From: an uncultured Flavobacteriales bacterium
GTDB lineage: Bacteria > Bacteroidota > Bacteroidia > Flavobacteriales_D > Parvicellaceae
DNA length: 37,225 bases
Reading direction: 5' to 3'
NCBI GenBank assembly: GCA_905480225.1
Contig: CAJQPO010000034.1
Location: 1 to 37,225, forward strand
In this document: positions 22,609 to 28,271 of the stretch, piece after piece
How the letters are laid out: the number at the start of each line of letters is the position of its first letter
Numbering within the stretch: the first letter of the stretch is position 1
Program-made: the position numbers and the translations under genes
Notes under the pieces: model-generated
What the model was told of the DNA's origin: nothing
Database searches by the model: none
Seen by the model: only the letters and a program-made list of their open reading frames with translations

Positions 22609-24933
22609 ATGATTACTGGAACAATTATCAATGCTGCCGCAATTGTTGTAGGTGGATTAGTAGGCGTCTTAATTAACAAGGGTATTCCAGACAGAGTGTC
22701 TAATATTATATTTCAAGCATTAGGATTGTTTTCAATATTTTTAGGCTTGTCGTTAGCATTCAAAACACAAAATAATTATTTAATTATTGCTTTGTCGCTA
22801 ATAATTGGTGGCGTAGTGGGAGAGCTGTTGCGATTAGAACAGGGAACAGAGAAATTGAGTAATCAATTACGAAACAAACTAAAAAATGCCAATCCGAAAT
22901 TTACAGAGGGACTGGTTATCTCTTCCATGATTTTCAGTATCGGCTCTATGGCTATTATTGGACCGATGAATGAGGCGTTGGATAACGATAGGACACTTAT
23001 TTTAACGAAGTCTATGATGGACGGTGTAACGGCCATTGCCTTGGCTGCGGCATACGGTAGAGGTGTGCTATTCTCTGCTGTGCCTGTTTTTATTATTCAA
23101 GCTGGGATTGGTTTAGGAGCGAAATGGGTAGAACCTTTCTTGTCTGATAATTTGATTAATGAATTAACGGCTGTTGGCGGTGTTTTAATTGTTGGTATAG
23201 GAATTACAGTACTAAACATCAAAAAAATTAAAGTAATCAATTTACTTCCTGCAATGCTATTTATCATTCCACTTTATTTCATTTCATGCGCTTTAGAGGA
23301 GGACGAAACGATAGACAAGGCTTCGAATCTGCCAACAAAAGGAATGGTTGTTTCAGCTCATCCAATTGCATCCGCAATTGGATATGAAATTCTGAAAAGT
23401 GGTGGAAACGCATTTGACGCTGCTGTTGGTGTTCAATTTGCCCTATCCGTTGTTTATCCTAGAGCGGGCAACATTGCAGGAGGTGGATTTGCAGTTTTTA
23501 GAGAAAGTGATGGTAGTTGTGGGGCGTTAGATTTTAGAGAAAAGGCTCCAATTAGTGCCACCAGGAACATGTATCTTGATGATAGCTCAAATGTTGTTGA
23601 AGGGTTATCTTCTTTTGGTCATTTATCAGTGGGTGTGCCAGGGTCTGTAGATGGCATGTGTCGATTGCATAGTAAATTAGGAAAATTGCCTTTTGACGAA
23701 GTCATACAGCCTGCAATAAACGTTGCACAAAATGGTTTTATACTAACGGAAAAAGAGGCAGCAAAATTAAATGCTTACCAACAAGATTTTACCGAAGCTA
23801 ATTCAGGTAAAATCCCTTTCGTTAGAGAGTTTCCATGGATAGCAGGAGACTCTGTTTTCTTGCCCAAATTAGCTGAAACACTAATGGCCATTAGGGATCG
23901 AGGCAGGGAAGGGTTTTATTCCGGTGATGTTGCCCGCAGTATTATTAATCAAATGGAAAGGGGAGCAGGCATAATTACAAAAAAAGATTTATTGGAATAC
24001 GAGTCTGTTTGGAGGAAACCGATTACTGGATTTTATAAGGGACATAAAATAATTACAATGTCACCACCATCCAGTGGAGGAATTGCATTGATGCAATTGC
24101 TTCAAGGAAGTAGTGAATTTGATTTTGAAGAAATGGGCCACAATACTTCAAAGTCGATTCATGTGATGACGGAACTAGAAAGAAGGGTTTATGCCGACAG
24201 GGCTACTTATTTGGGTGACCCAGAATTTGTGTCCGTACCCATGAAGATGTTGATGGACTCTAGCTATATAGCCTACCGAAACAGCTCAATTTCACTCCAA
24301 AATGCAACTTCTTCAGACAGTATTCGAGAAGGGTACGTAGAAAGAATTGAAAGCATGGAAACTACTCATTTTTCAATTGTAGATAAAAACAATAATGCGA
24401 TAGCGATTACGACCACCTTGAATGGAAATTTTGGTTCCAAGGTTTTCGTAGAAAATGCCGGCTTTTTTTTAAATAATGAAATGGATGATTTTAGCGCAAA
24501 GCCCAATGTTCCTAATCAATATGGACTAGTAGGTGCTGAAGCCAATGCCATTGAACCTGGTAAGCGAATGTTAAGTTCTATGACACCAACAATTATTGAA
24601 AAAGGAAACGAGCTATTTATGGTTGTTGGAACTCCTGGAGGAGCAACAATCATTACTTCAGTGTACCAGTCAATTATCAATGTAATTGATCACAAAATGA
24701 GTATTCAAGAAGCAATTAACGCTAAAAAAGTGCACCACCAGTGGCAACCCAATGTAATCACTTATGAGGAAAATGCTATCGATAGCCTTACAATTAACAA
24801 ACTAAGAGCTATGGGGCATACCTTGCAATCAACTCGTGCAATCGGGCGTGTTGATGCTATTTTAGTGGATGAAAACAACAAGTTTCAAGGCGCTGCTGAT
24901 CCACGTGGAGACGATGTTGTTGTAGGTTTTTGA
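22609..24933 (+). CDS. DUF554 membrane protein fused to a gamma-glutamyltransferase
   Basis: One frame of 774 residues joins two normally separate proteins. Residues 1-218 are a DUF554 integral membrane protein with about six helices (FSIGSMAIIGPMNEAL, TKSMMDGVTAIALA) and its usual terminal motif IKKIKVINLLPA (204-215). Residues from about 228 form a complete gamma-glutamyltransferase, which cleaves glutathione and gamma-glutamyl amides in the periplasm after self-cleavage. The nucleophile is Thr585 (ETTHFSIVD), and SPPSSGG (485-491), LSSMTPT (655-661) and GTPGG (674-678) line the active site. The joint (LFIIPLYFISC, Cys227) looks like a lipoprotein signal peptide merged with the last DUF554 helix, so the enzyme would be tethered, or freed if the lipobox is cleaved. 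No stop or frameshift mark is visible at the joint. Confidence 0.88.
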   Translation: MITGTIINAAAIVVGGLVGVLINKGIPDRVSNIIFQALGLFSIFLGLSLAFKTQNNYLIIALSLIIGGVVGELLRLEQGTEKLSNQLRNKLKNANPKFTEGLVISSMIFSIGSMAIIGPMNEALDNDRTLILTKSMMDGVTAIALAAAYGRGVLFSAVPVFIIQAGIGLGAKWVEPFLSDNLINELTAVGGVLIVGIGITVLNIKKIKVINLLPAMLFIIPLYFISCALEEDETIDKASNLPTKGMVVSAHPIASAIGYEILKSGGNAFDAAVGVQFALSVVYPRAGNIAGGGFAVFRESDGSCGALDFREKAPISATRNMYLDDSSNVVEGLSSFGHLSVGVPGSVDGMCRLHSKLGKLPFDEVIQPAINVAQNGFILTEKEAAKLNAYQQDFTEANSGKIPFVREFPWIAGDSVFLPKLAETLMAIRDRGREGFYSGDVARSIINQMERGAGIITKKDLLEYESVWRKPITGFYKGHKIITMSPPSSGGIALMQLLQGSSEFDFEEMGHNTSKSIHVMTELERRVYADRATYLGDPEFVSVPMKMLMDSSYIAYRNSSISLQNATSSDSIREGYVERIESMETTHFSIVDKNNNAIAITTTLNGNFGSKVFVENAGFFLNNEMDDFSAKPNVPNQYGLVGAEANAIEPGKRMLSSMTPTIIEKGNELFMVVGTPGGATIITSVYQSIINVIDHKMSIQEAINAKKVHHQWQPNVITYEENAIDSLTINKLRAMGHTLQSTRAIGRVDAILVDENNKFQGAADPRGDDVVVGF

Positions 24934-26460: not shown

Positions 26461-28131
26461 TTATCGCAGAATTTTCCTAACAAATGCTACTGTGAAATAT
26501 GACATTAGAAAAAGTCCCACAAATCCTTCAATACTAGAAACCATCCGAATGGACCCCCACGGTGAGTAATCACCGTACCCAATTGTGAGAAAAGTAATCG
26601 CTGAATGATAAAAAGAAATGGCCATCTCGGAAAGCTCTTCTGGTGGGCTAAAACCAGGCTTTAAATCACCTATTCCCCAATGAATCATGCACAAATATGT
26701 AATACTAAATAATACGTAAGTAAAAAGCATACTAATTAAAACCCTTAAAGGATTGGTCGCATAAAGTCCCATCCAATCGAATATTAATTTTTTACCAAAG
26801 CTTGTCGGATATACCCAAAGTCTATTGAAACCGTTGGAATTAACCTTACTGCTGTTATAGGCTTTTAATTCGTACCTCTTGAATGCAACGTAGGCTTTAT
26901 CTTCATCGTTGTATTTGCCAGAAGAATGAAAATCTTCTTTTAAAAGTCTAAATTGATTTGATTTATCTAAATCGGATGAATTTTGGCTTTCAATTAAATT
27001 TCTAACATTATTTTCTTTCCAATCAAGAAATATCTTTCCAAGATTTCTTACACCGGTTAGAATCAAGGTGTCTAAATCTAACTCAGTCTTTCCTTTTTTC
27101 AAATCGACAATATCTCTAATAATTGTGTCTGAAAGGTCAATGCATTCGCACCGGCTTACTCGTAAATCGATATAGGTCTTAAGCTGGCAAGATTTGAAAG
27201 TGATGGATTTAGAAATGGTTCTTAGCATGGACAAACTGCCACTGCCAAATTCTGCGGCTTCGAAGGAAACTTCTTCATTGCCAAAATCTGCCATGTCAAA
27301 AGAGATATTTCCCGAACCAAATGTGGCCCTTTTAAAATAGGTCCTGCCTTTTTTGTGTTCAATTTCTTCGAAGGATACTAAAGCGTTTCCAAATATTGTT
27401 TTTCTGAAATCCAATTTGCCTTCACCGAATTCAACCTTTCTAAAATCGACATATTTCCCGTTAAATTCAGATTTGTCAAAAGAAATGTCGCCAATACCAA
27501 ATTTTGCAAAATGAAAGTCTACATTGCCTAAACCAAAGTTGAAATTCTTGAAGTTGACATTGCCGTCCCCGAAATTGGCATTAATAAATGTAGTGTTCCC
27601 GTTATAGTTTGCTCCATTTTCGAAAATAACATCTCCAGTACCAAAGTCGGCAAATTGGAAATTGATGCTTCCTTCACCAAAGTCTACGTTGGAAAAGTCA
27701 ACCGTTACTTCTTTGAAGTCAGTTTTGTAAAAGCTAACGTTTCCACTGCCAAAAGTGGTATTTAAAAAGTCACAATTATTAACGAATTCAGCATACGAAA
27801 AGTCAGTAGTTGTATCTGCCTCAAAAAATGTATGGATGGCACTAAACTGATTCAGTTGTAATTTTTCGTCTTTACTTAATGCGTGTTTTTCTCTACATTC
27901 TGCAAGGGAGAAATTTTTGATGTAACAATTGGAAATATTAAGTACCTCCCCAGCTACAATCTTCTCGTAAACTTCATCGACATCCAAAACTCCATACCGT
28001 TCTTTTTTAACCACATTTCGATTTCCATCACGGAAAATTATGACCGCCGTTCTTGGCAGTGAGAAAAGACCATTATCAAAAGGGTCATCACTGATTTTAA
28101 TTGAATACGATTGGTGTTGTTTTTGACTCAC
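26461..28131 (-). CDS. Two-helix potassium-channel-like protein with a cytosolic 12-residue-repeat beta-solenoid
   Basis: A 556-residue protein in two parts. Residues 127-306 are fifteen exact 12-residue repeats of the form FGxG-x-V/I-x-F-x-x-A/T-x, preceded by looser copies from about 96; this reads as a pentapeptide-repeat-like solenoid with a 7+5 step. After a helical linker (370-440) come TM1 (about 463-484), a pore helix and the selectivity filter TIGYGD (516-521), and TM2 (533-551), the layout of a two-TM K+ channel. The solenoid has no signal peptide and would lie in the cytosol as a sensor or tether, which is inferred. The start is GTG 28131, overlapping the stop of a 47-residue membrane protein as GTGA. 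Pentapeptide-repeat ion channels are known, but the regular 12-residue period is unusual. Confidence 0.85.
   Translation of the reverse strand: MSQKQHQSYSIKISDDPFDNGLFSLPRTAVIIFRDGNRNVVKKERYGVLDVDEVYEKIVAGEVLNISNCYIKNFSLAECREKHALSKDEKLQLNQFSAIHTFFEADTTTDFSYAEFVNNCDFLNTTFGSGNVSFYKTDFKEVTVDFSNVDFGEGSINFQFADFGTGDVIFENGANYNGNTTFINANFGDGNVNFKNFNFGLGNVDFHFAKFGIGDISFDKSEFNGKYVDFRKVEFGEGKLDFRKTIFGNALVSFEEIEHKKGRTYFKRATFGSGNISFDMADFGNEEVSFEAAEFGSGSLSMLRTISKSITFKSCQLKTYIDLRVSRCECIDLSDTIIRDIVDLKKGKTELDLDTLILTGVRNLGKIFLDWKENNVRNLIESQNSSDLDKSNQFRLLKEDFHSSGKYNDEDKAYVAFKRYELKAYNSSKVNSNGFNRLWVYPTSFGKKLIFDWMGLYATNPLRVLISMLFTYVLFSITYLCMIHWGIGDLKPGFSPPEELSEMAISFYHSAITFLTIGYGDYSPWGSIRMVSSIEGFVGLFLMSYFTVAFVRKILR
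27214..27753 (-). repeat. Fifteen tandem 36-base coding units (12-residue solenoid repeats)
   Basis: This stretch codes residues 127-306 of the channel-like protein. Each unit is exactly 12 residues with no insertion or deletion across 15 copies. Position 1 is Phe in 13 of 15, position 2 mostly Gly, position 6 aliphatic, position 8 Phe in 14 of 15. The DNA units differ a good deal from each other, so the array is old and kept by protein selection rather than a recent expansion. Confidence 0.9.
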
Positions 28132-28271
28132 TCAATAGGCTTTTGAACATACATCGAACCAATATACAGAATAGTTAAAAGAATGATGAATACCATTAAA
28201 TAAAAGATGGCTTTATTATTTGCAAATGGGCTGTTTTTGTCATAGCCTTTTTTGTAATTGAAAAAACCCAT
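28128..28271 (-). CDS. 47-residue single-pass membrane protein
   Basis: A short gene from ATG 28271 to TGA 28128. Residues 1-20 are polar and basic (MGFFNYKKGYDKN), residues 21-42 form one transmembrane helix (AIFYLMVFIILLTILYIGSM), and the tail is short. The ATG is 3 bases after the stop of the thioredoxin-fold gene and the TGA overlaps the GTG of the channel gene as GTGA, so it fills the gap between the two exactly, strong support for a real gene. It may be an accessory subunit of the channel; that is inferred. Confidence 0.72.
   Translation of the reverse strand: MGFFNYKKGYDKNSPFANNKAIFYLMVFIILLTILYIGSMYVQKPIE

Follow-up and report, generated by a model that had tools for sequence, protein, structure and literature searches.

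Proteins of the pentapeptide superfamily carry at least eight contiguous five-residue repeats, with four repeats per coil, and a precise function is clear for only a handful of them (PMC8145042, accessible sections). Under the amended repeat rule, position i-2 holds an uncharged or small hydrophobic residue and position i holds Leu, Phe, or another hydrophobic residue (PMC7337050, accessible sections). The accessible part of the open-access literature searched (PMC9009326 and PMC11237479 included) yielded no pentapeptide-channel fusion, and the main text of PMC8145042 contains no word starting with "channel." Papers on KCTD9 were set aside as an overlap of name only.

We analyzed a window (i.e., the whole stretch of DNA, 37,225 nucleotides) containing a gene for a protein in which a repeat solenoid precedes a two-transmembrane (2TM) pore. 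In channels of the MthK type, the regulatory RCK domain is C-terminal. These RCK-gated channels and the window protein have a 2TM pore with GYGD in common (a weak phmmer match; E of 0.04), but the window protein stops after the second transmembrane helix (TM2), and no Pfam match to an RCK domain was found in it at E<1. The haloarchaeal protein WP_276282428.1 (Halorussus), which is annotated only as pentapeptide repeat-containing and was retrieved when the linker and pore served as the query, resembles the channel in having an N-terminal repeat solenoid, an intervening segment, and a 2TM pore with TLGYGD. A protein from the window's own phylum (L051) likewise combines pentapeptides with a pore. 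In both proteins, as in the channel, the C terminus follows soon after TM2, whereas their best repeat model is the canonical PF00805 and they deviate from the channel in details of the linker motif and the filter. Because these two proteins join pentapeptides to a pore, the solenoid-linker-pore architecture is not new and occurs elsewhere. HetL (3du1) is a right-handed beta-helix with which our model of the solenoid aligns, but it has four five-residue repeats per coil (PMC8145042, accessible sections), compared with about 24 residues per coil proposed for the channel, and it has no pore.

The channel family to which the window protein belongs is real and well conserved, and its solenoid is unusually regular and fixed in length; we place the family as a variant within the pentapeptide-type channels. 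With a helix of the pentapeptide type fused to a measurable pore, the function of a solenoid becomes testable electrically.

The channel gene and its family

The sequence-only reading gave no strand for 26461-28131; the open frame is on the minus strand, starting with a GTG at 28131 and ending with a stop at 26461, and the plus strand of this segment is stop-rich (Table 1). Frames of 556 aa were likewise present in both same-genus relatives.

Table 1. Coordinates of the channel gene, its predicted parts, and the adjoining small ORF in the window
Feature	Positions	Strand	Basis or remark
556-aa solenoid K+ channel gene	26461..28131	-	GTG start, stop included; open frame, same-genus relatives
N-terminal segment, residues 1-61	27949..28131	-	Without Pfam match
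N-terminal cap and first rungs (NISNCYI..., F103, DF111, F116, F122), residues 62-126	27754..27948	-	Alignment, model
Fifteen 12-residue units, residues 127-306, read as 7.5 coils of 24	27214..27753	-	Covariation, model, counts
Helix continuation in 5-6 residue steps (ITF..CQL..IDL..IDL..VDL), residues 307-352	27076..27213	-	Sequence, model
Linker, residues 353-460	26752..27075	-	Conserved motifs QFRxLKExFxxxGxYxDEDxAYxxFKRxEL and FDxxGLYATxPxRVL
Outer transmembrane helix TM1, residues 461-487	26671..26751	-	Hydropathy, Pfam
Selectivity filter TIGYGD, residues 516-521	26569..26586	-	Sequence
Inner transmembrane helix TM2, residues 530-555	26467..26544	-	Hydropathy, Pfam; protein stops just after (FVRKILR)
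47-aa single-TM-like ORF	28128..28271	-	4-base overlap with channel start; also in L002, L058

Of 399 genomes from the order, 35 had a match to a 22-member profile, counting the genome of the window itself; in one of the 35 (G030), the match covered the pore end only. A second family within the order had the channel in 9 of 240 genomes, and 2 of these 9 also carried a more degenerate paralog. Among 395 genomes drawn from across the phylum, the own genome gave a full match and four others matched over the pore end only (profile position 429 onward); the solenoid profile found only the own genome at E<=1e-5 in these 395 genomes, a draw that is poor in the window's order. No channel relative was present in the viral contigs searched. 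Named relatives were a Crocinitomicaceae MAG (97%) and an uncultured Flavobacteriales MAG (81%), by which the window is assigned to Flavobacteriales. The set of 36 aligned proteins consisted of the window protein and others from 37 matches, from which G030 was dropped (pore end only, frame broken); L023, with unresolved bases, was kept among the 36 and left out of one alignment (A2).

The repeat unit and its coil

Residues 127-306 comprise 15 units, each of exactly 12 residues, with Phe at unit positions 1 (13 of 15 units) and 8 (14 of 15), Gly at positions 2 and 4 (11 of 15 each), and Val, Ile, or Leu at position 6 (13 of 15). The pattern F-x6-F-x4-F was seen 10 times, well above chance expectation (mean, 0.85; maximum, 6; 20,000 shuffles of residues 100-310 alone). 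An initial description of the array as fifteen perfect 12-residue repeats holds for unit length (15 x 12) and fails for sequence, the mean unit-to-unit identity being 32%. Phe rungs can also be read from the sequence upstream of the array (F111, F116, and F122), and canonical 5-6 residue steps, which are confined to the C-terminal flank, follow it (approximately residues 307-344). The ladder of inward residues continues on either side of the array.

Across residues 98-350, 35 of the 36 proteins contained only single-residue indels, with no unit gained or lost. These lay mostly in the 7-residue sides (119, 130, 142, 145, 166, 259, 284, and 296) and, at 174, in a 5-residue side. Many relatives have an extra residue at 119, by which the preceding step becomes 7 residues long and the array effectively one unit longer. 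A conserved repeat number, named in the sequence-only reading as a point to survey in homologs, was therefore borne out by these 35 proteins, and the fixed unit number is a distinctive feature of the channel family. The exception, L044 (G184), is an interrupted copy; what is missing from its open part is exactly one unit of 12 residues (279-290). In comparisons with nine relatives, between 3 and 11 of the 15 window units found their best match in the same-numbered unit of the relative, with the smallest count in the paralog, and many array units thus keep an individual identity. The paralogs L056 (G317) and L057 (G308), of 541-543 aa, accompany a regular copy in their own genomes and have the same register but a small number of Phe rungs, with two F-x6-F-x4-F matches each.

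We compared the unit with the pentapeptide inward rule in 33 proteins (the 36 less L044, L056, and L057). At i-2, the rule was obeyed in 454 of 495 cells (position 6) and 477 of 494 cells (position 11), and at i in 495 of 495 cells (position 8) and 461 of 493 cells (position 1). Since the position pairs 6+8 and 11+1 both obey the rule, the 12-mer reads, as judged from sequence, as a pair of pentapeptide repeats, every second repeat being longer by two residues. The additional residues are at unit positions 4-5, often Gly followed by Asn or Lys. Eight contiguous five-residue repeats are not found in the array, as every second step has 7 residues, and we therefore describe the protein as a long-step relative and not as a canonical pentapeptide repeat protein.

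The window protein gave no match to the Pfam pentapeptide models at E<1, remaining below the Pentapeptide_3 (PF13576) cut-off of 27 bits. This model nonetheless matched 5 of 22 family members at E<=1 (best, 1.2e-14). Among seven relatives scanned singly, L005 (54.6 bits), L045 (43.9), and L046 (47.4) passed the cut-off, and L004, L006, L009, and L010 had no match. A tblastn search of plasmids with the window protein returned 67 records, 60 of them from Streptomyces; the first listed had an E of 2e-20 over residues 121-299. Three of the 67 records were examined, and all carried the 7+5 unit (Pentapeptide_3 E of 1.2e-16 to 7e-36); composition may have raised the significance of matches between repeats so rich in Phe and Gly, although the 7+5 spacing is identical. 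In three actinobacterial proteins, the unit copies were 54-69% identical and differed in number (16, 17, and 23). The Streptomyces plasmid proteins WP_135567495.1 and WP_153182134.1 share with the channel an F-x-x-G-x-V-x-F-x-x-A-x unit with 7+5 Phe spacing, in runs of 23 and 16 units, respectively (F/L/V/I at position 1, F/L at position 8). They match Pentapeptide_3 (E of 7e-36 and 1e-31), which the channel protein does not at E<1, their units are 62-69% identical compared with 32% in the channel, and, unlike the channel, they have no Pfam pore at E<=0.01. The unit is therefore not new, as actinobacterial Pentapeptide_3 proteins share its 7+5 spacing, and, of the two outcomes that the sequence-only reading set against each other, grouping with the Pentapeptide_3 families or standing apart, the second does not hold. 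In the own genome, Pentapeptide_3 matches were also observed in frames of 3034 and 432 aa (L085 on contig C9 and L086 on contig C29).

To estimate coil length, covariation was calculated as corrected mutual information (MI) between equal positions of different units, averaged over the array (the same 33 proteins; Neff, 18; columns with entropy >0.3 only). Among separations of 6-60, the maximum was at 24. At a unit offset of 2, the mean corrected MI was 0.051, compared with a null of 0.006 (sd, 0.011), and 0 of 5000 unit-order shuffles reached the observed mean. Offset 1 was at the null level (2198 of 5000), offset 3 was low (4853 of 5000), and offset 4 was slightly raised (582 of 5000). With a reduced alphabet, separation 26 ranked first and 24 second, and of the 60 highest-ranked single pairs, three were 24 apart and another three 80 apart; the signal at 24 thus resides in the average and not in strong single contacts. 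Self-similarity of the units by offset did not discriminate between 12 and 24.

A regular solenoid was also obtained by structure prediction, as the sequence-only reading had anticipated. AlphaFold2 run on residues 50-356 with two relatives gave a best model with a pLDDT of 91.1 and a pTM of 0.88 (the other four of five models, 71.6-82.5 pLDDT); its strands extended to model residue 297, and pLDDT fell to 60-65 in the last blocks. In VIA-align, the top solved chains were right-handed beta-helices (Z of about 20). Tailspikes, lyases, and other beta-helices dominated this list, and we took them to indicate a common fold only, with no bearing on function. HetL, matched by VIA-align only, ranked below many unrelated beta-helices (Z, 17.4; rmsd, 3.1; 228 of its 237 residues aligned). 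The 283 model residues spanned the 237 HetL residues, a ratio that agrees only roughly with 24 versus 20 residues per coil because of caps and loops in both structures. At E<=0.001, Foldseek retrieved nothing for the solenoid model from PDB or from viral models, with pentapeptide proteins weakly present.

A covariation spacing of 24 residues corresponds to four Phe rungs, and the model aligns with right-handed beta-helices. The 12-residue unit is thus most likely half a coil, the array reading as a four-rung 7+5+7+5 helix, presumably with four sides. Regular 12-residue arrays, which Pfam pentapeptide models can miss, are thereby indicated as half-coils of a wider helix. Since covariation gives 24 residues per coil, the early figure of about 15 coils is corrected to about 7.5; of the two shapes offered with it, a three-sided or a modified four-sided beta-helix, the latter agrees better with the covariation, the model, and the HetL alignment. 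Beta-helices rise 4.8 angstrom per coil, from which we estimate an array length of about 36 angstrom. The exact 12-residue period would also suit a narrow two- or three-sided beta-helix in which each unit is one whole coil (about 15 coils), but covariation appears at 24 and is absent at 12, the model aligns with wide right-handed beta-helices and HetL, and each unit has two inward Phe in the pentapeptide i-2/i pattern; we regard this arrangement as extremely improbable. Insect antifreeze helices have 12-residue coils, and a coil of that type was rejected for the array on the same three observations.

Pore, linker, and proposed mechanism

Pfam Ion_trans_2 (PF07885) matched the window protein with 40.1 bits (cut-off, 22.5; E of 3.3e-10) and 22 of 22 family members at E<=1; NCBIfam gave a single pore match, below its cut-off. 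Residues 461-555 constitute a two-helix pore in which TIGYGD lies between two hydrophobic stretches (Table 1), and no 19-residue Kyte-Doolittle window starting at residues 1-430 exceeded 0.93. The sequence-only reading was right on both the two-helix pore following the solenoid and the attachment of a regular solenoid to a K+-channel pore. The protein has the features of a 2TM K+ channel (a score above the Pfam cut-off, two TM helices, and a T-x-GYG filter), and it presumably conducts K+ as a tetramer.

TIGYGD, TVGYGD, or TIGYGE was present in 35 of the 36 proteins; in the exception, L055, a stop close to where the locus ends closes the frame ahead of the filter. GYGE replaces GYGD in 8 of the 36 (L006, L007, L009, L010, L011, L013, L014, and L015), a naturally occurring Asp-to-Glu change at the end of the filter. 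This replacement might be expected of a pore that is not K+-selective in function and has been co-opted, e.g., as a nonselective or stress-release pathway, a reading that we consider very unlikely given T-[IV]-GYG in 35 of 36 proteins and a sole exception whose frame ends before the filter. Action as a defense effector was rejected; PADLOC gave no match at E<=0.1 (three proteins).

The linker is among the most conserved parts of the protein, strongly so in the first of its two motifs (Table 1). It was helical in the full-length single-sequence AlphaFold2 model, a low-confidence model (mean pLDDT, 43.8) that was discarded. Compared with a profile of the linker and pore, four other channels, WP_276282428.1 and L051 among them, gave an hhalign probability of 99.7%, with the alignment beginning at the linker motif and the score driven by the pore. 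The linker and pore search also found the same kind of pore in an unannotated Aeromonas frame. In phmmer and profile searches of solved structures, the channel had pore matches only.

Outward-facing positions of the solenoid were most conserved, by unit mean, in unit 10, followed by units 5 and 9. The outstanding residues were G236, G238, K239, D241, and R243 (unit 10) and E256 (unit 11), joined on odd units by N184 (unit 5) and by the near-invariant Q159 and F208. Outward conservation is thus spread and not limited to units 9-11. We read the conserved outward residues as a candidate binding or inter-subunit surface.

The protein is probably a two-transmembrane K+ channel of the tetrameric type, in which a solenoid at the N terminus, on the cytosolic side, would control or anchor the pore via the conserved linker and TM1. 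The orientation of known 2TM channels places their N-terminal part in the cytosol, and by analogy the solenoid would be on that side. The whole regulatory part would be N-terminal, consisting of a right-handed four-sided beta-helix (an estimated ten or so coils, flanks included) and the linker, followed by the pore, with nothing past the inner helix. With the regulatory part ahead of TM1 and no further domain beyond TM2, control would enter via the linker and the outer helix. The tower would most likely be a stiff arm, constant in length, to which a partner, a ligand, or a neighboring subunit binds via a conserved patch on units 9-11, and binding would be relayed through the linker to the outer helix, by which the pore would be opened, closed, or positioned. 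Both the gating through TM1 and the partner binding are conjectural at this stage. More specifically and only tentatively, the oblong, length-fixed helix with 24-residue coils, wider than a 4x5 coil, may work on TM1 like a stiff lever for gating or like a ruler, operating from the N terminus without a C-terminal ligand domain.

The solenoid could instead be a nongating tether or scaffold that anchors an open or otherwise gated K+ channel, its fixed length setting a distance. The pentapeptide proteins of known role described in PMC8145042 (accessible sections) bind other proteins, and such a role would be consistent with the conserved outward residues and with the constancy of the unit number in 35 of the 36 aligned proteins. 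However, the high conservation of the solenoid-pore linker fits coupling better than a passive tether, and no partner gene was consistently adjacent in the 16 regions compared; we therefore hold a purely anchoring role to be rather unlikely.

Gene neighborhood

Downstream of the channel, on the same strand, is a gene for what we take to be a citrate synthase; upstream are the 47-aa ORF and genes for a presumed thioredoxin-like protein and a presumed DPP IV-like peptidase. Within the bacterium's own family, the citrate synthase gene adjoins the channel in 7 of the 8 regions compared, and DPP IV and thioredoxin-like matches were present in 6 of these 8. Among 8 regions from other families, three of which are cut at or near the contig start upstream, none had this citrate synthase/DPP IV gene order. 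The gene order is local synteny and not evidence of an envelope operon; the proposed operon with envelope proteins is not supported. DPP IV and citrate synthase were likewise rejected as operon partners.

The position of the 47-aa ORF beside the channel recurs in both relatives of the same genus (L002 and L058). Its tblastn search gave no match in 15 other regions, and the upstream frames of 12 regions were read by eye. It is possibly a small partner, or its position is due to chance. In L070, the frame just upstream of the channel reads, by eye, like a separate canonical pentapeptide repeat protein.

Elsewhere in the window, a single 774-aa frame (22609-24933, plus strand) combines what appear to be a DUF554-like membrane protein and a gamma-glutamyltransferase-like enzyme, names that we presume from its sequence. 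L058 had a single tblastn match to this frame, over 570 aligned positions; the frame represents either a gene fusion or an assembly slip.
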